Of a DNA stretch of 64,000 bases, positions 3,301-62,656 are shown piece by piece. The DNA is from Lachnospiraceae bacterium (GTDB lineage: Bacteria > Bacillota > Clostridia > Lachnospirales > Lachnospiraceae): NCBI GenBank assembly GCA_028693705.1, contig JAQUUX010000003.1, positions 1 through 64,000 of the forward strand. Direction: 5' to 3'. Both the position numbers and the translations under genes were made by a program. Numbering within the stretch: the first letter of the stretch is position 1; each line of letters starts with the position of its first letter. The notes under the pieces were generated by a model. The model did no database searches and was not told the origin of the DNA. It was given only the letters and a program-made list of their open reading frames with translations.

Positions 3301-4185
3301 TAAACTTCAGTTTAGGTTACTGCAAAAGGCACAGAAAGTCCCACTATAGTACTTATCGAGGCACGCTTTCGCTACAGGAATTGCGTAGCATCACATAAGC
3401 GCATATACTACATGCGCTAAGTGATGACGCATTCCAAGTACCTCTCAAAGTACTATAGTGGGACTTTCTTTCGTTTTGCACCAACCCGGGTGCCCAGTCT
3501 GTAGCCGAGGCCAGACTATTGCAACTGTTCATTTGCTGTAACTGGGGTCTTTGCGTCACCGGGCACTATAAACTGTAGTTTAAAGGAATAAAGATTGATG
3601 TAAAGTGACGGTTCAGCCGTGTATCATATGCTCACAAGCCCGTTCTCACTACGGTAAACACGTAGCTGTACGTAGGTTCGCACAAGACGCGAACCAAGTA
3701 CAGACGTGTTTACAGTGCTTGTTCGCATACGATACACGGCTGAACCTCGTTTTACGGCAATCTGTATTTCCTTCAATCTGCAGTTTATAGTGCCCAGGGA
3801 CGCAAAGACCCCAGTTACGGCAAATGAATAGTTGCAATAGTTTAGCCTTGGCTACAGACTGGACCAACTGCAGATTGGCAACTTGAAAAGAATAACGAAT
3901 GTAACGAACAGGCAGTAGTGCGGGTGTGTATTCTTCCATTGCCTGTGAGCATGTATTAAAGCCACTTAATCATTCCAGACATTACCACAGCTATTCCGGG
4001 CAAGGACGCCCGGAAAGGAACCGCAGAGCCAGGATGGCGATTGGTTCCGTTAGCGTAAGCTGCTGCAATCTAAATGGAATGATTTAGTGGCTTTTATACG
4101 TGCGAGCGGCAATGGAAGGATACACACCCGCACCATTGCCGTCTCGTTATAATTATTATTATTTAAGTTGATAAACTGCAGTTTA
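3301..4185. repeat. Modular hairpin repeat element, copy A (885 bp)
   Basis: This gene-free stretch is one mosaic element bounded by the palindromic TAAACTTCAGTTTA (3301-3314) and TAAACTGCAGTTTA (4172-4185). In order it holds: module 1, a hairpin with perfect 21-bp arms (3333-3353 and 3449-3469) and an inner hairpin; a ~90-nt unit in reverse orientation (3479-3568); TAAACTGTAGTTTA (3569-3582); module 2, a three-tier hairpin (3610-3746); the same ~90-nt unit in forward orientation (3788-3873); and module 3, a hairpin with ~66-nt arms (3911-3976 and 4075-4140). The right end provides the TAA stop of the 4183-4770 gene. Small open frames inside have no ribosome sites and follow the hairpin arms, so I treat them as non-coding. 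Confidence 0.85.
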
Positions 4186-4770
4186 CTGTGCATCTCCCGC
4201 TTTGGAATCATACTCAATCGAAGTAACCGCATCATTTGTCACGATGAATTTCAGGTCCATATCCCCTTTGGTTAAAACCACCATGCCGCTTTCCACTTCA
4301 TAGTCGGAACCGTAAGCAGCCTCAATATCTGCCAGAGTATCGCCAATAGCAATTCCCTCCGATGTCTCTACCATATCATTTTTCAGAATGATGGCAGCAA
4401 TTTTATCATTTTCTCCATCCGGATAAGTATCAATTTCAAAGTTATCATAGGTATACACCTTATCCAGACCTTCAAATGCACAGCTTGGTGCTTCATAATA
4501 GCTGACCGGTTCGCCAAGGCTTTCCAAAACCGGTGCCATGTCCATATCCGGTGCCATAATTGTATCTTCTGTTATCAAAACATAGCCATCTACAGCTGCT
4601 TCCGGTGTTGCCTCTGCGCTGTTTTTCTGCTCTGGCTCTGTTGCCTGACTTTCTGTTTGTGCGGTCTGGTCGTCCTTAGAAATCACTGCTGTATCATCAG
4701 AGCCGCAGCCCATACAGATACCTGCTGTTAAAATAACTGCTGTAATAATGTAAACGATCTTCTTTTTCAT
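4183..4770 (-). CDS. Predicted lipoprotein of unknown function
   Basis: A 195-residue secreted protein. Residues 1-21 form a signal peptide, and C22 in ICMGCG is the likely lipidated cysteine, though the lipobox is not canonical. Residues 25-60 are a low-complexity Thr/Glu/Ala linker, and the rest is a small acidic domain I do not recognise. Its ATG overlaps the stop of the upstream SGNH gene by four bases, so it is the last gene of the surface operon. Its TAA stop lies in the boundary palindrome of repeat copy A, so the last residues may have been altered by that insertion. A role on the outer face of the membrane with the Dlt-like system is inferred only from position. Confidence 0.75.
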   Translation of the reverse strand: MKKKIVYIITAVILTAGICMGCGSDDTAVISKDDQTAQTESQATEPEQKNSAEATPEAAVDGYVLITEDTIMAPDMDMAPVLESLGEPVSYYEAPSCAFEGLDKVYTYDNFEIDTYPDGENDKIAAIILKNDMVETSEGIAIGDTLADIEAAYGSDYEVESGMVVLTKGDMDLKFIVTNDAVTSIEYDSKAGDAQ

Positions 4771-31090: not shown

Positions 31091-31706
31091 CAAACTGTAG
31101 GTTAAAGGAATAAGGATTGATGTAAAGGGACGGTTCAGCCGTGTATCATATGCTCACAAGCCCGTTTTCACTACGGTAAACACGTAGCTGTACATAAGTT
31201 CGCACAAGACGCGAACTAAGTACAGACGCGTTTACAGTGCTTGTTCGCATACGATACACGGCTGAACCTCGTTTTACGGCAATATTTATTTTCTTTAAGC
31301 TGCAGTTTGTGGTGCCCTGGGGCGCAAAGACCTCAGTTACGGCAGGTGAAAAATTGCAACAGTTTAGTCTTGGCTACAGACCGGGCCAACTACAGATTAG
31401 CAACTTGAAAAGGATAATGAATGTAACGAACAGGCAGTGGTGTGGGTATGTATACTTTCATTGCCTGGGAACACGTATTAAAACCGCTAATCATTCCGGC
31501 TGTAACCCAAGCTATCACGAACATGGATGTTCGTAAAGGAACCTTAGAGCCAGGATGGCGATTGGTTCCGTTAGCGTAAGTAATCGCCATCTATACGGAA
31601 TGATTTTGTGGCTTTTATACGTGTGAGCGGCAATGGAAGGATACACACCCACACCATTGCCGTCTCATTATAAACATTATTTTTTAAGTTGCTAAACTCC
31701 AGTTTG
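31091..31706. repeat. Modular hairpin repeat element, copy B (~616 bp)
   Basis: The gap between htpG and the PrsA-like gene is filled by a second mosaic element. From the left: the boundary CAAACTGTAGGTTAAAGG, module 2 with its nested hairpin (31125-31265), boundary GCTGCAGTTTGTGG, the ~90-nt unit (31305-31390), module 3 (31432-31662), and the boundary TAAACTCCAGTTTG (31693-31706). It has the same module order and orientation as the right two thirds of copy A but lacks module 1. The right end encodes the last residues and TAG stop of the PrsA-like gene (FQTGV-stop). No credible gene lies inside. Confidence 0.85.
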
Positions 31707-32753
31707 AAAGTACTTCGCATACACCGCAAAGAAGTCTGCACTTCCCGCACTTTCCTCCAGTGAAATCTCCACCCCATCCCAAAGCTTTTCATTCAGCTCT
31801 CTTGTCAGGGTTTTCACAAAGGCATCATATTCCTCGCTGAACGTTTCCTGCCTTCTCTCTTCTACGATTTTCACCTTATTAGCATCTGTCTGGTTTCTGT
31901 CGAAGGTGGAAAGGCATTTAATAATCTCATAACCAGAATCGGTTTCTACAATGTCACTGATTTCATCCTTTGCCAGATTAAAGGCTGCAGTTTCGAAAAC
32001 TTCATCCATCTCCCCTTTACCAAAAGAATAGGTTCCTTCTTCCGCCTCACTGTATTCTGTCATCAGGCTTTCAAAAGGTGTTTCACCATCTCTCGTTCTG
32101 TTAAAAGCTTCTTTAGCTTTCTGGTAGGCAGTCTGTTTTTCAGCATCTGTATAAGCTACTCTCTCTCCGTTACCATCCAGTGTATAGGTCTTTATCAAAA
32201 TATGCTCCACTGTAATGATTCTGGCTTCATCATCGCTGATCTCCGGATTGATGTCTTTTATAATATATGCATATACCTTTTCAGCAAGGGCATATTCTCT
32301 GTATAGTTCTTCCACCGTTTCTAAATCAATTCCCATATAGTCGATTTCAGCTTCGGTCAAAGCTCCATAATATTCCTGTGCAGCTTCTTTTACCTGGGCT
32401 TCTTCTGTCTCGTCCAATACAATACTGTGCTCACGTGCCAGCAGGTTCATGGTCTTGATCTGGGACATTTTTGCCAGTACTGTATCCTTTACGTTCTGTT
32501 CCAGTGTGATACCTTCCAGATCTGCGTTCCAGATTTCTGTGCCATACACATTTTCATACTGATTTCTGGTATTCACCAGATAAACCATAATCTCCGGCAG
32601 TGTACAGGTAATATCTTCAATTCGAAATACTTCATTTTTAGAAAATCCCGTGGTCAATACCACCTTGGTAATATCTTCCGTCTGACTGCCACATGCTGTC
32701 AGAGGACCACCTATCATGAGTAAAAAAAGCATAGAACAAAAAAACTTCTTCAT
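31692..32753 (-). CDS. PrsA/SurA-like peptidyl-prolyl isomerase lipoprotein
   Basis: A 353-residue extracytoplasmic foldase. The signal peptide ends in lipobox PLTAC (Cys21). Residues 40-170 are a SurA-N-like helical domain; residues 180-285 resemble the parvulin-type PPIC domain (ITVEHILIKTY, TPFESLMTEYSEAEEGTYSF, GKGEMDEVFETAAFNL, SDIVETDSGYEIIKCL). A C-terminal helical tail closes the N-terminal domain. It should help secreted proteins fold at the membrane surface. The last residues and the stop are within the boundary of repeat copy B, so the C-terminus may have been changed. GGAG precedes the ATG. Confidence 0.87.
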   Translation of the reverse strand: MKKFFCSMLFLLMIGGPLTACGSQTEDITKVVLTTGFSKNEVFRIEDITCTLPEIMVYLVNTRNQYENVYGTEIWNADLEGITLEQNVKDTVLAKMSQIKTMNLLAREHSIVLDETEEAQVKEAAQEYYGALTEAEIDYMGIDLETVEELYREYALAEKVYAYIIKDINPEISDDEARIITVEHILIKTYTLDGNGERVAYTDAEKQTAYQKAKEAFNRTRDGETPFESLMTEYSEAEEGTYSFGKGEMDEVFETAAFNLAKDEISDIVETDSGYEIIKCLSTFDRNQTDANKVKIVEERRQETFSEEYDAFVKTLTRELNEKLWDGVEISLEESAGSADFFAVYAKYFQTGV

Positions 32754-37480: not shown

Positions 37481-37509
37481 TTGACAATGTTTTCACACCG
37501 TGCGACAAT
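37481..37509 (+). promoter_or_regulatory. Promoter of the SGNH esterase gene
   Basis: A perfect TTGACA (37481-37486) and GACAAT (37504-37509), 17 bases apart. The GTG at 37500 lies inside it, which argues for the downstream ATG at 37563 as translation start. Confidence 0.6.
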
Positions 37510-37562
37510 TTTTAAGATCCTTTTATAAAAATTACAATACTATCCGAGAAAGAAGTTATTTC

Positions 37563-38816
37563 ATGAATTTAATACCCAAGCCTCATATACAGGCAAATAA
37601 CACTTTATTCGTAAATCAAGAAAAAGCTGTCTGGACAGCCATGTGGGGAAATGCTGTTTCCCGTCCTGATCATCTGCCCGCCGAATACGCTAAAGACATC
37701 ACACTGCGTTACCCCGTTTTTGCTCCTTTTGCAGGTACTGCACTGCGCTTTCGTTTTGACAACTACTGTGGCAGTGAACCGATTACCATTGCAGATGTTT
37801 ATGTATCTCACAAAGTAAAAGAAACGATAGAAGATACTCCCGGCACCGGATTTCGCGGCACGCTTTGCGATGCTTCTACAATAGTCCCTATTACATTTTG
37901 CGGTAAAACCAACATTACCATTGCTCCCGGTAAAAATATTCTAAGCGATGAAATTCCATTTACAGTAGTTGCAAAAGAAATGCTCACCATCAGCTTTTAT
38001 CTACCGGAGTTTACGCAGATGAATTCCTGTGTTTTCACCTCCGGCCCTTTATCCGGTGGTTTTTTCTCCAAAGGGAACCATAGTGCCGACAGGATATTCC
38101 CTGTCGAGACTGCCAGAAGCACAAACTGGATCTATTTTTTAAGTGATATTGATATATTAACCCAGCCGGAAAATCACGCGGTGATCTGTTTTGGTGATTC
38201 TATTACTGCCCAGAGCTGGCCTGATTATCTCACGCTCTTTTTAGCAGAAAATGAAAACAACCATATTTCCGTTATCCGAAAAGCTGTATGCGGCACCCGT
38301 ATCCTCAGACAATATGATTGTGTCAATTATGATTCCTACGGACTGATGGGAAAAAACCGCATGCCCCACGAATTAAATGTTACCGGCGCCACCGATATTA
38401 TTCTGCAGCATGGTATCAACGACATCATTCACCCCGTAGGGTACAAAATAAATCAGTTCCGTCCCATGAGTGATCTGCCTACTGCCAGTGAACTGGAAGA
38501 CGGCTTTGCATGGTATATCAATCAATCCAGAAATGCCGGATTACGTGTATACGGAGGCACTCTGGTACCTATCTGGAATTGGAGAACCTATGCACCTTTC
38601 CGAGAAGATCTGAAAAATGATTTTAATGATTGGATTCGAAATACGGATCTGCTAGACGATTGCATGGACTTTGATCTGGCGGTCAGAGATGATGAAAACC
38701 CTGTTGCTTTTAAAAAAGGATATGACAGCGGAGATCATTTGCATCCCAGCGAGGAGGCGTACCAGGCGATGGCAAGGTGTGTGCAGAGTAAGTTAAACTG
38801 TAGGTTAGTAACTTGA
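37563..38816 (+). CDS. SGNH/GDSL-family esterase
   Basis: A 417-residue probable carbohydrate esterase. Residues 1-180 form a beta-sandwich domain. The catalytic domain has block I VICFGDSITAQSWP (Ser213), block III ILQHGINDIIHP, and block V GDHLHPSEEAYQAM (Asp391, His394). There is no signal peptide, so it probably acts inside the cell on imported acylated sugars. This layout resembles SGNH proteins that deacetylate plant or host glycans, but the substrate is open. The last residues (LNCRLVT) and the TGA stop are encoded by the edge of repeat copy C, so the native C-terminus was probably replaced. Confidence 0.83.
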   Translation: MNLIPKPHIQANNTLFVNQEKAVWTAMWGNAVSRPDHLPAEYAKDITLRYPVFAPFAGTALRFRFDNYCGSEPITIADVYVSHKVKETIEDTPGTGFRGTLCDASTIVPITFCGKTNITIAPGKNILSDEIPFTVVAKEMLTISFYLPEFTQMNSCVFTSGPLSGGFFSKGNHSADRIFPVETARSTNWIYFLSDIDILTQPENHAVICFGDSITAQSWPDYLTLFLAENENNHISVIRKAVCGTRILRQYDCVNYDSYGLMGKNRMPHELNVTGATDIILQHGINDIIHPVGYKINQFRPMSDLPTASELEDGFAWYINQSRNAGLRVYGGTLVPIWNWRTYAPFREDLKNDFNDWIRNTDLLDDCMDFDLAVRDDENPVAFKKGYDSGDHLHPSEEAYQAMARCVQSKLNCRLVT

Positions 38817-39324
38817 AAAGAATAATTATAAAGAGACGGCAATAGTGCGGGGGTGTATCCTTCCATTGCCGCTCACACGTATAAAAGCCACTAAATCATT
38901 CCATTTAGATTGCAGCTAACTACGCTAACGGAACCAATCGCCATCCTGGCTCTGAGGTTCCTTTCAAGCCATTTATGGCTTTGGCATCCTTGCCCGGAAT
39001 AGCTGTGATAACAGTTGGAATGATTAAGTGGCTTTAATACATGTTCACAGGCAATAGAAGAATACACCCCCGCACCACTGCCTGTTCGTTACATTCGTTA
39101 TTCTTTTCAAGTTGCCAATCTACAGTTGGCCCGGTCTGTAGCCAAGGCTAAACTATTGCAACTATTCATTTGCTGTAACTGGGGTCTATGCACCACCGGG
39201 CACCACAAACTGCAGCTTAAAGAAAATAAATATTGCCGTAAAACGGGCTTGTGAGCATATGATACACGGCTGAACTGTCCCTTTACATCAATCCTTATTC
39301 CTTTAACCTGCTGTTTGTGGTGCC
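38794..39324. repeat. Modular hairpin repeat element, copy C (~531 bp, reversed)
   Basis: The gap between two convergent genes is a reverse-orientation copy: boundary TAAACTGTAGGTTA (38794-38807), module 3 (38837-39085), the ~90-nt unit (39120-39210), boundary AAACTGCAGCTTAAAG, a shortened module 2 (39215-39300) and TTAACCTGCTGTTTG (39303-39317). Module 2 has lost one hairpin arm and its centre: the sequence jumps from GCCGTAAAACG to GGGCTTGTGAGC, which in copies B and D are separated by about 115 bases, each marked by AAAACG or a close variant. The left edge supplies the stop of the SGNH gene, the right edge the stop of the MATE gene. Confidence 0.85.
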
Positions 39325-40655
39325 AGTATCTTATTGATCCGGGTCAGGAACAGCGCACTGGCGGTTACCGCTGATACAATATCAGAAATCGGTTCTGCAA
39401 AGAACACTCCGTTAACTCCCATGAAAAACGGCAGGATAAGTGCCAGTGGGATCAGCAGAATGATCTTTCTGAATACCGCAATAAACAGGGATATCTTAGC
39501 CTGTCCCAAAGATACAAAGGTGGGCTGGATACCCATCTGCAATCCGAACAGGAACATACCAAACATAAAGATCCTCATACTGTTCTTTACCAGAGCAATC
39601 AGTGCTGCATCGGTTGTAAACATAGATGCAAGCTGCCCTGCGAACAGGATACTGCCACCTGTTATGATCACGCCATAGAGAAAGCACATGCCTATCATAA
39701 CACGGTAAGTTTTCCGCACTCTTCCGTAATTATTGGCTCCATAATTAAAACTGATAATCGGCTGTACACCCTGGGTAAATCCCTGGATCGGCACGTTGAT
39801 CATCTGCATGATACTCTGCAAGATCGTAAATGCTCCAACGTAGGAATCCCCGCCATATACAGCAAATTGATGATTCATCACAATACTGATCAAGCTCTCG
39901 GTAGAGGTCATGACGAAAGGTGAAACGCCAAGTGCCAGCATTGGTTTGGCAAGAGATGACTTGTAGCGTATTTTTTTCAGTGTTAACCGCATGGCTGATT
40001 TTTTACCAGCCAGGAATGTAACTACCCAAATGGCTGAGACTGCCTGTGATATCACAGTAGCTATGGCAGCTCCTACAACACCCCATTTGAACACAAAGAT
40101 CAAAAGAGGATCTAAAATCATATTTAAAACAACACCAATGCCCACAGAGAGCATGGCTGTCATGGAGTTGCCTTCTGCAATGATATAAGGATTCAATCCC
40201 ATGTATAGCTGTACGAAAATCGTTCCAATCAGATATATGGAAATATAAATATCCGCATAGGGGAATGTAGCATCTGAAGCACCAAACATATATAAAAGTG
40301 GTCTTTTAAAGATATAAAAAACAACCATGATACCAACCGTAAACATCAGTAAAAGGAAAGTACCTACCCCCATATTATTCTCGGCTTCCTCATGATCTCC
40401 TCTTCCTAACGCAATGGCAGCAAGCGGAGCTCCGCCCGCACCTACGATTCTTGAAAATGCTGCTACAAAGGTTATGATGGGAAGTGTCAGACCAACACCG
40501 GTTAAAGCACTGGCTCCTGCACCGGGAATATGCCCGATATAGATCCTATCGATGATACTGTAGAGGATATTAATAACCTGTGCCACAATAGAAGGCAATG
40601 CCATCTGGCGCATTAATTTACTTAGTTTTTCAGTTCCTAATTTCTTGTCATCCAT
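39303..40655 (-). CDS. MATE-family efflux transporter
   Basis: A 450-residue multidrug/toxin exporter with about 12 membrane helices. MRQMALPSIVAQVINILYSI is the usual first helix, and GVGLTLPIITFVAAFSRIVG, IVMNHQFAVYGGDSYVGAFT and FNYGANNYGRVRKTYRV the repeated MatE signatures. It probably exchanges drugs for Na+ or H+. ATG 40655 was chosen over one at 40772: it is the start that aligns with the family and follows AGGG. The last residues APQTAG and the TAA are encoded by repeat copy C. It ends the peptide/hydantoin-type cluster. Confidence 0.88.
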   Translation of the reverse strand: MDDKKLGTEKLSKLMRQMALPSIVAQVINILYSIIDRIYIGHIPGAGASALTGVGLTLPIITFVAAFSRIVGAGGAPLAAIALGRGDHEEAENNMGVGTFLLLMFTVGIMVVFYIFKRPLLYMFGASDATFPYADIYISIYLIGTIFVQLYMGLNPYIIAEGNSMTAMLSVGIGVVLNMILDPLLIFVFKWGVVGAAIATVISQAVSAIWVVTFLAGKKSAMRLTLKKIRYKSSLAKPMLALGVSPFVMTSTESLISIVMNHQFAVYGGDSYVGAFTILQSIMQMINVPIQGFTQGVQPIISFNYGANNYGRVRKTYRVMIGMCFLYGVIITGGSILFAGQLASMFTTDAALIALVKNSMRIFMFGMFLFGLQMGIQPTFVSLGQAKISLFIAVFRKIILLIPLALILPFFMGVNGVFFAEPISDIVSAVTASALFLTRINKILAPQTAG

Positions 40656-40782
40656 GTAAAGATCCCTGTCTTCATCTTTTATCGTAATATTACCAGTATA
40701 ACCACAAAACAGATAGACAGCAACCTCAAATCCGCCATCTATCTGCTTTTTTAGATTAATTTTATATTCCAATTACCAGTTT

Positions 40783-57237: not shown

Positions 57238-57829
57238 TAAACTGTAGTTTAAATGGATTAAAGCAAACCGAAAGGGACGACTATATCACTCTGAGAGGCT
57301 CGCTTTTAGTGTAAAGAGCCGGATTAGCTGTATATGGTATGCTCTCAGGCACATTCGTATTACGGTAAGGACATAGCGGCACATAAGGCTGTAAACTACA
57401 CAGCCCAAGTGCCGATGTCCTTACAGTACCTGATCGCATACCATATACAGCTAATCCTTACATTACAGCAAAGTCCAGCCTCGATGAGTGATATAGTCAT
57501 CCCTTTCTTTGTACTTTATTCCAATTTAATCTGCAGTTGCCCCAGTCTGTAGCCAAGACCAGACTATTGCAACTATTCATTTGCCGTAGCTGTGGTCTAT
57601 GCACCACCAGGCACCACAAACTGCAGCTTAAAGGAACTAAACATTGCCGTAAAACGAGGTTCAGCCGTGTATCGTATGCGAACAAGCACTGTAAATACGT
57701 CTGTACTTAGTTCGCGTCTTGTGCGAACTTATGTACGGCTACGTGTTTACCGTAGTGAGAACGGGCTTGTGAGCATATGATACACGGCTGAACCGTCACA
57801 TTAATAGCAATCCTTATTCCTTTAACCTA
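57238..57829. repeat. Modular hairpin repeat element, copy D (~592 bp)
   Basis: The gap between ilvE and the alcohol dehydrogenase gene is a fourth mosaic. From the left: boundary TAAACTGTAGTTTA (57238-57251); module 4, a nested hairpin with 21-nt outer arms (57271-57291 and 57486-57506, one mismatch), a second stem (57321-57335 with 57443-57457) and inner stems; boundary ATCTGCAGTTGCCCC; the ~90-nt unit in reverse (57538-57620); boundary AAACTGCAGCTTAAAGG; and full module 2 in reverse (57650-57800). Module 4 is unique to this copy. The right edge supplies the TAA stop of the dehydrogenase gene. There is no ribosome site or credible gene inside. Confidence 0.85.
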
Positions 57830-58997
57830 CATTTCCTCTAAAAGCCCTCTCATAAACCTGTATCACCTGCTCCCTTGTTGGGAGAATCTGGTTGTCTGCC
57901 ATGCAGGTATCATGTAATGCCAGATCTGCCAGTGCTCCAAAATCTTTTGGATCCACCTTCCCCAGTTTTTCCAGAGATTCAGCAATTCCTACTCTCCGGC
58001 TTAGGTCCCGAATGGCACTAACACCTGTCTGGAAAGCCTGTTCCGAAGTCATCTGCTCTGCTCCGGCTATATGGAAGGCAGTTATAATCTTTTTAAATCG
58101 TTCTCTTACCACAGGCGAATTCCCATTAAACTCCATTACAAAGGGAAGCAAAACTGCATTGCATACACCATGGGGCAGATTATAATGTCCTCCCAGCGCA
58201 TGTGCCATGGCATGCACCATACCAAGGCCGGCATTACTAAATGCCATACCTGCCACATTTTCTGCATAAGCCATCATAGACCTGGCTTCTTCATCCTGTC
58301 CATTTACATATGCTCTTGGCAGATTTTCAAAAATAGCTTCCATCGCCCAGTAAGCATCCTTATCCGTTACCGGATTTGCCCGCAGAGCAAGTGCTGCCTC
58401 TATGGCATGGGTTAGTGCATCCATACCGGTTGCTGCCGTCAGCTTAGGGGGCATGGACATCATAAAATCAATATCATCAATAGCGATACTTACCATGCAA
58501 TTGGTATCCACCATTGCCATTTTACTGTGTTTTACCGGATCCGTCACAATATAAAAGCTGGTACACTCGCTTCCGGTTCCGGCTGTGGTATTCACTGCCA
58601 CAATAGGAATCCCGGATTTGACTGATTGATCCACACCCTCATATTGTTCAACGCTTCCGCCATTAGCGACCACAATAGAAACTGCTTTGGCCGTATCAAT
58701 GGCGCTGCCACCACCTACTGCTACCAACAGATCCACTGCCAGTTCTCTTGCCGCGTGAATACACTCATTGACCACATCTATGGTAGGATTGGGTTTTACC
58801 TGATAATAAATAGCATATTCCACATTTCCCTGTAACAGTGCATCTCCTACCCGTCCGGCAGCACCGGACTCATAGAGAAACGAATCTGTTACAATCAAGG
58901 CTCTGTGAATTCCCATTTTTATCAATTCCTGCGGTAATAATCCCAAAGCACCTTTTCCAAAAAATGTTGTTTTTACTGCATTGATTCTCTCAGCCAT
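57822..58997 (-). CDS. Iron-containing alcohol dehydrogenase (PduQ-like)
   Basis: A 391-residue group III alcohol dehydrogenase. The NAD site is VGGGSAIDTAKAVSIV; metal ligands lie in the region GMDALTHAIEAALAL and GMVHAMAHALGGHYNLPHG. In propanediol or ethanolamine BMCs such enzymes reduce the aldehyde to alcohol and regenerate NAD+. It is the last gene of the BMC operon. The last codons and TAA lie at the edge of repeat copy D (RGNVG-stop), so the C-terminus may be changed. GGAG precedes the ATG. Confidence 0.9.
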   Translation of the reverse strand: MAERINAVKTTFFGKGALGLLPQELIKMGIHRALIVTDSFLYESGAAGRVGDALLQGNVEYAIYYQVKPNPTIDVVNECIHAARELAVDLLVAVGGGSAIDTAKAVSIVVANGGSVEQYEGVDQSVKSGIPIVAVNTTAGTGSECTSFYIVTDPVKHSKMAMVDTNCMVSIAIDDIDFMMSMPPKLTAATGMDALTHAIEAALALRANPVTDKDAYWAMEAIFENLPRAYVNGQDEEARSMMAYAENVAGMAFSNAGLGMVHAMAHALGGHYNLPHGVCNAVLLPFVMEFNGNSPVVRERFKKIITAFHIAGAEQMTSEQAFQTGVSAIRDLSRRVGIAESLEKLGKVDPKDFGALADLALHDTCMADNQILPTREQVIQVYERAFRGNVG

Positions 58998-61278: not shown

Positions 61279-61590
61279 TTACAGTGTTGGCATACAATCT
61301 CCCACGCTGCCATGAGGTCTTGGAATGACATGTACACTGACTACTTCACCAATTCTGGAAGCTGCTTCGGAACCGGCTTCTGTGGCTGCCTTTACAGCAC
61401 CTACATCACCCTGCACAAATACAGTTACCAGACCTGCTCCAATCTGTTCCTGACCTACCAAACGTACATCTGCTGCCTTTAACATAGCATCTGCTGCTTC
61501 GTAGCTTGCTGTCAGACCATATGTTTCTATCATTCCCAAAGCCTCCAACTTAGAGGTTTCTAATTCTTTTTTTGCTGTTTCTGCTGCCAT
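61279..61590 (-). CDS. BMC-H hexameric shell protein (copy 1 of type I)
   Basis: A 103-residue hexameric shell protein of the Pfam BMC family ([20 protein letters not shown], then [28 protein letters not shown]). It has a short charged N-terminal extension. It is nearly the same as the protein at 61993-62292. It forms a gene pair with 61612-61899, and that pair is duplicated. GGAGGG precedes the ATG. Confidence 0.95.
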
Positions 61591-61611
61591 GATAAAATAC
61601 CCTCCGTTTTC

Positions 61612-61899
61612 TTATTTACCTGCCGGTCCTTTTTTTGGTAAGATTCTTGCAATGTCTGCGTGAGGTCTTGGAATCACATGTACTGCATGCAATTCTCCTA
61701 CTCTAGATGCGGCTTCTGCACCGGCCTCTGTTGCTGCCTTTACAGCACCTACCTCTCCTGTTACCACAACTGTGGTCAGACCTGCACCAATGGTATCTGA
61801 ACCAACAAATTCCACATCTGCTGCTTTTAACATAGCATCAGTTGCTTCGATATTTCCTACAAGACCCTTGGTCTCGATAAATCCAATTGCTTTTAACAT
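61612..61899 (-). CDS. BMC-H hexameric shell protein (copy 1 of type II)
   Basis: A 95-residue BMC-H protein that starts directly with the domain ([20 protein letters not shown]), with [20 protein letters not shown] and VIPRPHAD. Residues 33-52 have [18 protein letters not shown], which differs from its paralogue at 62332-62616 in the pore-side strand. AGGAGG precedes the ATG. Confidence 0.95.
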
Positions 61900-61941
61900 A
61901 GCGTCCTCCTGTTTCTTTGGAAATTATCCCGATAAAGTAAT

Positions 61942-61990
61942 CATACATTTGTAAAATGTATGCATTTATAAAATGCATGAAAATGCATGC
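61942..61990. repeat. Consecutive hairpins between the two shell-gene pairs
   Basis: CATACATTT-GTA-AAATGTATG (61942-61962) and ATGCATTT-ATA-AAATGCAT (61960-61978) are two perfect hairpins that share three bases, followed by a palindromic AATGCATGC stretch up to the stop of the 61993 gene. They lie between two translated shell genes and may set mRNA stability or expression ratio. Confidence 0.65.
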
Positions 61991-61992
61991 TT

Positions 61993-62292
61993 TTACAAAG
62001 AAGGCATACATTCTCCTACGCTGCCGTGAGGTCTTGGAATAACATGTACACTAACCACTTCTCCTACACGGGAGGCTGCCTCAGAACCAGCTTCGGTTGC
62101 GGCTTTTACAGCACCTACATCCCCCTGTACAAATACGGTTACCAGACCTGCACCAATCTTCTCCTGACCTACCAGACGTACATCTGCTGCCTTTAACATA
62201 GCATCTGCTGCTTCATAGCTTGCTGTCAGACCATATGTTTCCACCATGCCCAGTGCTTCCAGTTTAGATGTTTCTAATTTATTGTCTGCCAT
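61993..62292 (-). CDS. BMC-H hexameric shell protein (copy 2 of type I)
   Basis: A 99-residue BMC-H protein, nearly identical to that at 61279-61590: it differs mainly in the N-terminus ([20 protein letters not shown]) and single changes such as QEKIGAG for QEQIGAG and GECMPSL for GDCMPTL. It should form hexagonal shell tiles alone or mixed with its paralogues. AAAGGAG precedes the ATG. Confidence 0.95.
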
Positions 62293-62331
62293 GATATATT
62301 CTCCTTTTCTACTGAAGTTCTTCTTTGTTTT

Positions 62332-62616
62332 CTATGCTGCCGGTCCCTTAGGAGGCATAATCTTTTCCAGATCAGCATGTGGTCTTGGAATCACATGTAC
62401 GGCGTGCAGTTCTCCAACTCTGGATGCAGCTTCCGCACCTGCTTCAGTTGCAGCTTTTACGGCACCAACTTCGCCCTGTACTACAACACATACCAATCCT
62501 GCTCCGATTGCCTGGGAGCCTACAAACTCAACATCAGCAGCTTTTAACATAGCATCGGTTGCTTCAATATTACCTACCAGTCCTTTAGTTTCAATAAATC
62601 CAATTGCTCTTAACAT
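62332..62616 (-). CDS. BMC-H hexameric shell protein (copy 2 of type II)
   Basis: A 94-residue BMC-H protein paralogous to 61612-61899 ([20 protein letters not shown]). The loop [18 protein letters not shown] has a Cys near the pore where the paralogue has Thr, which could alter the pore. It lies 40 bases after the aldehyde dehydrogenase gene. GAAGGAGAGG precedes the ATG. Confidence 0.95.
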
Positions 62617-62656
62617 ATTCCCTCTCCTTCCGTCGTCTCAGGCGACCTGTTTTTCC

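Follow-up and report, generated by a model that had tools for sequence, protein, structure and literature searches.

Modular hairpin elements in the 64-kb window

The window analysed here is the first 64 kb of a 79-kb contig from the 3.12-Mb draft genome (160 contigs) of a gut bacterium. It contains four copies of one modular repeat, designated elements A–D, at positions 3301–4185, 31091–31706, 38794–39324, and 57238–57829; their parts and the adjoining genes are listed in Table 1. Direct reading and mutual comparison confirmed that the four stretches share their parts, as proposed in an earlier note made from the letters of this window, and both the five linking units and the module orders given there were borne out. 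With modules M1–M4 and the linking unit U, these orders are M1+ U− M2+ U+ M3+ in element A, M2+ U+ M3+ in B, M3− U− M2− (the reverse of M2-unit-M3) in C, and M4+ U− M2− in D. The copy of module 2 in element C lacks most of its hairpin; the match extends over 61 of 191 nt, and one arm is left. All the hairpin modules are present, but modules 1 and 4, noted as unique to one copy, are single-copy only inside the window, and both recur genome-wide. A near-identical copy of module 4 of element D is located at contig position 76453.

A palindrome had also been noted at every junction. It is clean at the outer ends of the elements, but the inner joints are degenerate, and none is present between module 1 and the linking unit in element A. 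The palindrome AAACTNNAGTTT was found five times as an exact match in the window, always within the elements, vs. 0.1 expected from shuffles. The TTA of the right palindrome of element A is the stop codon (TAA) of a minus-strand gene at 4183–4770. The window also carries four direct repeats of ~297 nt at 61279–62640, which are spaced by 348–366 nt, are 63–85% alike, overlap predicted frames, and are unrelated to the hairpin elements.

Table 1. Parts of elements A–D and adjoining genes (window positions).
Feature	Positions	Strand	Remarks
A, left terminal palindrome TAAACTTCAGTTTA	3301–3314		exact match
A, module 1, class I hairpin	3317–3490	+	conserved core 3354–3452; model R1, 96 bits
A, linking unit, reverse	3494–3569	−	91% to 3787–3863
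A, inner palindrome TAAACTGTAGTTTA	3569–3582		
A, module 2, class I hairpin	3584–3774	+	core 3631–3729; R1, 115 bits
A, linking unit	3787–3863	+	
A, module 3 hairpin	3877–4170	+	TwoAYGGAY (RF01731) at 3943–4109; 96.3 bits
A, right terminal palindrome TAAACTGCAGTTTA	4172–4185		
B, left terminal palindrome	31092–31103		one mismatch
B, module 2	31106–31295	+	core 31153–31251; 95% to module 2 of A
B, linking unit	31312–31384	+	
B, module 3	31400–31691	+	TwoAYGGAY at 31465–31630; 84.2 bits
B, right terminal palindrome	31694–31705		3′ end of PPIC-type rotamase gene 31692–32753 (−)
C, left terminal palindrome	38794–38807		3′ end of GDSL-lipase gene 37500–38816 (+)
C, module 3	38810–39116	−	TwoAYGGAY at 38869–39050; 69.1 bits
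C, linking unit	39131–39203	−	
C, truncated module 2	39242–39302	−	hairpin core lost; module 2 positions 1–61 only
C, right terminal palindrome	39305–39316		3′ end of MatE gene 39303–40772 (−)
D, left terminal palindrome TAAACTGTAGTTTA	57238–57251		
D, module 4, class I hairpin	57253–57525	+	core 57342–57440
D, linking unit	57542–57602	−	
D, module 2	57631–57821	−	core 57675–57773; 93% to module 2 of A
D, right terminal palindrome	57824–57835		degenerate; stop codon of iron-alcohol-dehydrogenase gene 57822–58997 (−)

Distribution of the element and its two hairpin classes

About 58 element clusters, fragments counted, were catalogued in the 3.1-Mb draft genome together with their module order and terminal palindromes. 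The orders include M2-U-M3, M4-U-M2, M2-M1, M1-U-M2-U-M3, M3-U-M1, and M4-U-M3. At least 40 copies of module 2 and at least 40 linking units are present, along with 40 matches to the RNA family TwoAYGGAY (39 above the family cut-off), and, allowing for up to one mismatch, TAAACTNNAGTTTA has 103 genome-wide occurrences vs. 19 of a reversed control pattern. The modules are thus neither restricted to this window nor joined as one fixed unit, and the idea of a modular, dispersed, BOX-like hairpin repeat with varying order and orientation stands. Many clusters lie at contig ends, ~110–135 bp inside the palindrome, so that the genome probably has more copies than counted here, and the assembly is probably broken up by the repeats. 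Beyond this genome, the mosaic element was found in only one other metagenome-assembled genome, that of Lachnospiraceae bacterium STD2_226 (referred to below as G195). Spread by phages or plasmids was rejected, as no match was detected in the phage, plasmid, and viral contigs of INPHARED, PLSDB, and IMG/VR.

The element is built from two hairpin classes, class I and class II (TwoAYGGAY, module 3), around a spacer of ~75 nt. Modules 1, 2, and 4 share one apical structure under different outer stems and are therefore related. The apical core, GTAGC..AC-RTARG-hairpin-AAGT..GA, is common to these three modules, a fifth variant, and one hairpin from a relative, while their outer stems are unrelated. 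In the covariance model of the core, pairing holds in 95.5% of the pair cells, with changes on both sides in 18 of 25 pairs; these values were reached in none of 500 shuffles, nor by sliding. Neither the core, nor modules 1, 2, and 4, nor the linking unit matched any of the 4227 Rfam models. Class I is an undescribed covarying hairpin family. Searches with its covariance model found it in 43 of 195 relatives, with counts per genome often near 21 or at least that high. Class I adds an unannotated structured element, reaching dozens of copies in a genome, to many members of the family. The linking unit was also considered as a remnant of a c-di-GMP riboswitch (GACGCAAAG), which was rejected because no Rfam match appeared even at E 10.

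Class I hairpins move in some genomes, as indicated by their dispersed copies in relative G073 and their arrays in relative G109. The former genome contains ~17 near-identical hairpins of ~230 bp with different flanks and sharp ends, GTAACAGTTC...GAACTGTTAC; perfect 8-bp direct repeats were observed at two copies (TCCAACGG and AGAAAAAG) and near-perfect ones at others. These hairpin MITEs with GTAAC ends correspond to loci L151–L167. In G109, class I forms tandem arrays with periods near 187, 178, and 164 bp (loci L168, L169, and L173). An origin of the MITEs from IS66, to which the GTAA ends and 8-bp repeats could point, was rejected since the carrier genomes have no IS66 transposase: PF03050 was absent from G000, G073, G105, G109, G086, G011, and G095, and present once in G195.

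The earlier view that no described family matches the modules does not hold for module 3, which is Rfam family RF01731, TwoAYGGAY (clan CL00106), with scores of 69–96 bits at a gathering cut-off of 43 bits. Almost all TwoAYGGAY copies examined have two hairpins with A(C)ANGGAU(G) loops (ACANGGAUGU-like) and freely changing stems, and both ANGGA-type loop patterns were matched in at least 24 of 29 module 3 copies. These loops fit the CsrA selection consensus. CsrA is encoded in 17 of 17 TwoAYGGAY genomes; within the family, it is present in 16 of 16 such genomes vs. 49 of 104 others (Fisher p = 2e-5, kinship ignored). CsrA binding by TwoAYGGAY, proposed previously (PMC4333381), gains support from this association, short of proof. 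A second, diverged CsrA-like protein (open frame of 93–132 aa) is encoded at G000:C137:3601–3747 and has homologues in G041, G008, G059, G001, and G016; the gene in G041 is located ~1.2 kb from a TwoAYGGAY copy (C54).

Class I and TwoAYGGAY occur in the same genomes more often than chance would predict (within the family, 13 of 16; Fisher p = 9e-5). Two stand-alone pairs of this genome (L008 and L004) consist of class I followed by TwoAYGGAY on the same strand, like M2-U-M3. In a relative, the intergenic site of the L008 pair is occupied by a Clostridiales-1 RNA (RF01699; L204, 610–775). Stand-alone TwoAYGGAY copies also often form diverging head-to-head pairs 0–400 bp apart (C74:32721–33054, C123:25808–26314, G085:C1, G008:C33, and G115:C7).

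Stand-alone TwoAYGGAY hairpins have outer arms of 60–80 nt, which are complementary to their own partner but not to those of other copies (mean score 30 vs. 8.7); between copies, arm similarity barely exceeds that of shuffled sequences (8.9 vs. 8.2). Mismatches of the G-U and A-C types in outer arms were about equally frequent in stand-alone TwoAYGGAY (76 vs. 99), class I (72 vs. 74), and module 3 (145 vs. 145), except for module 2 (129 vs. 51), the copies of which are closely related and not independent. Selection at the RNA level on the outer arms was rejected on these counts. The arms of stand-alone TwoAYGGAY look like the result of neutral decay or of DNA-level repair of each palindrome rather than of RNA selection, and template switching from arm to arm might explain this pattern. 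An origin of such arms by inverted duplication of host DNA could be examined at a single usable empty site (L005 vs. L207), where the relative has another perfect hairpin. The site lies upstream of a CIRCE-like repeat; the stand-alone TwoAYGGAY of L005 (1441–1729) has as its counterpart in L207 (G195, C179:70700–72500) an unrelated perfect 18-bp hairpin; the position of the hairpin is conserved, and its sequence is not.

Element ends and gene 3′ ends

Read inward from the flank, the 101 element ends give the logo T-AAACTG[T/C/A]AG[T/G]TTA, with a sharp boundary at −1/0 and no conservation outside. The polarity of the terminal palindrome does not differ between the two ends, with a conserved G at centre position 1, and these palindromes are therefore terminal inverted repeats, TAAACTGYAGTTTA. 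No direct repeat of 2–10 bp that could be a target duplication exceeded the control in the 37 best-defined elements. The palindrome is at background level in G195 (18 vs. 29 in the control).

Flanking genes were called by open frame, without a gene finder. A gene 3′ end is faced by 78 of the 101 element ends, and at 43 of these 78 the palindrome's first base is also that of the stop codon (41 TAA, one TAG, and one TGA). The frames running into the palindrome fall into classes of 50:9:4 (chi-square p = 7e-14), so that insertion at random into last codons does not account for them. Both ends were readable in 41 elements, of which 39 are flush with a gene at one end at least and 20 at both; convergent genes flank 22 of the 41, and divergent genes none. 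In one case, the element starts immediately after the last base of the tmRNA gene (gap 0; ARAGORN call). Stand-alone TwoAYGGAY hairpins showed no flushness with gene ends.

Such a distribution could also be expected of purely selfish MITE- or BOX-like repeats without function, which would insert anywhere, with selection sparing the copies at 3′ ends and deletion trimming the intergenic DNA. In pneumococcus, BOX, RUP, SPRITE, and IS are over-represented between convergent genes, which was read as tolerance (PMC3049150). The class I hairpin of G073 is itself a mobile element of the ordinary kind, several copies of which have 8-bp direct repeats, and the lack of a terminator consensus inside elements A and C is consistent with absence of function. 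However, tolerance predicts loose downstream sites, not a stop codon at the first base of the element or the observed frame bias, and it does not predict flushness with tmRNA. We consider this explanation possible, though rather doubtful.

Empty sites were looked for by searching the flanks of 20 elements in G195, which is ~75% identical and the state of which was assumed to be ancestral. At C28:6573, the left gene ends in ...FINN in G195 and in ...LINN here; in G195 it is followed by 44 bp up to the next open-frame end, with a CCCCTCC/GGAGGGG hairpin and T-runs, and in this genome the element follows directly after the stop codon. At C149:17852, both C-termini match those of G195 (HFQKSID/HFQKQID and LLELV/MIELV); in G195, 124 bp that include the hairpin AGGGACC...GGTCCCT separate the genes, and here both stop codons touch the element. 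At the site of element B, ~24 bp are missing in comparison with G195, and the rotamase is ~nine residues shorter. From these comparisons we infer that the element replaced DNA at gene ends, clearly at the two convergent loci and, with a shorter loss, at element B.

Possible role, alternatives, and known systems

We lean toward the view that these sequences are copies of a mosaic hairpin element, non-autonomous and amplified, which takes the place of the DNA at gene ends and probably provides an mRNA 3′ end in both directions. The element would be inserted by an enzyme acting in trans, or cassettes would be exchanged by recombination between palindromes (J-to-J). Insertion would replace the DNA between gene ends, and the inserted hairpin could then serve both flanking genes as an mRNA 3′-end structure, either a terminator or an exonuclease barrier, which would make the element tolerable and allow it to be kept. 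Neither in element A nor in element C was a canonical intrinsic terminator detected, so that a terminator function is unsupported by consensus. The TwoAYGGAY modules, once transcribed, might in addition bind CsrA. A stronger version, in which the replacement reaction of a mobile element is aimed at gene 3′ ends and yields a portable two-way gene-end module, with the undescribed class I of about one-fifth of the relatives behind it, is tentative and, in our estimate, unlikely. If insertion does target gene ends and replace terminators, this would be a novel means by which a mobile element can remain harmless.

Alternatively, the elements may be a family of CsrA-binding RNAs, in which each transcribed copy would titrate CsrA or put the neighboring mRNA under CsrA control, as suggested earlier for TwoAYGGAY (PMC4333381). 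The two loops on freely changing stems and the co-occurrence with CsrA in the family speak for this explanation. Against it, elements without module 3 (such as M2-M1 and M4-U-M2) are amplified and placed alike, and the outer arms, with no excess of G-U over A-C, give no sign of RNA-level selection there. We regard it as rather unlikely. Exchange of cassettes by a site-specific recombinase, with each hairpin being a mobile cassette between J sites, would account for palindromes flanking most modules, for the variable order and orientation, and for the lack of target duplication; since the terminal palindromes share their polarity, as in transposon ends, and the inner copies are degenerate, we think it improbable. 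An origin as REP/BIME-type elements, mobilized by a RAYT-like (Y1) transposase in the form of single-strand hairpins, would fit the many copies of long intergenic hairpins and their mosaics. The 14-bp inverted repeats at defined ends and the composite length of 600 bp are not REP-like, and we consider this origin very improbable.

A replacing, non-autonomous mosaic element at gene ends, as favored here, has partial counterparts among known systems. Like the bacterial MITEs represented by class I of G073, the mosaic elements are non-autonomous and have inverted terminal repeats and near-identical dispersed copies; the G073 MITE has 8-bp direct repeats, whereas the mosaic elements of this genome have none. 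Pneumococcal BOX elements (boxA-boxB-boxC) are modular and hairpin-forming, have more than 100 copies, terminal inverted repeats, and a variable number of modules, and are over-represented between convergent genes (PMC3049150). Judged by description, the elements studied here resemble them in their several modules, combined in differing numbers and orders at many loci, and in their terminal inverted repeats. Their modules are hairpins of 170–300 nt, whereas whole BOX elements measure 67–637 bp; also unlike BOX by description, their orientation varies, no target duplication was detected, and their ends coincide with stop codons. SPRITE of pneumococcus comprises hairpin repeats near gene 3′ ends, proposed to be co-opted terminators (PMC3049150). 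The hairpins described here are likewise close to 3′ ends, but SPRITE has an 18-bp stem with a U-tract, and our elements are 600–900 bp long without a canonical U-tract terminator. Finally, module 3 agrees with TwoAYGGAY (RF01731) in its two GGA loops and in its internal three-way layout; TwoAYGGAY was described as a single RNA motif and is here one module of a repeated mosaic element. This orphan Rfam RNA thereby gains a new setting, as part of a dispersed hairpin element beside an undescribed partner hairpin, and the mosaic setting makes the old CsrA proposal testable.
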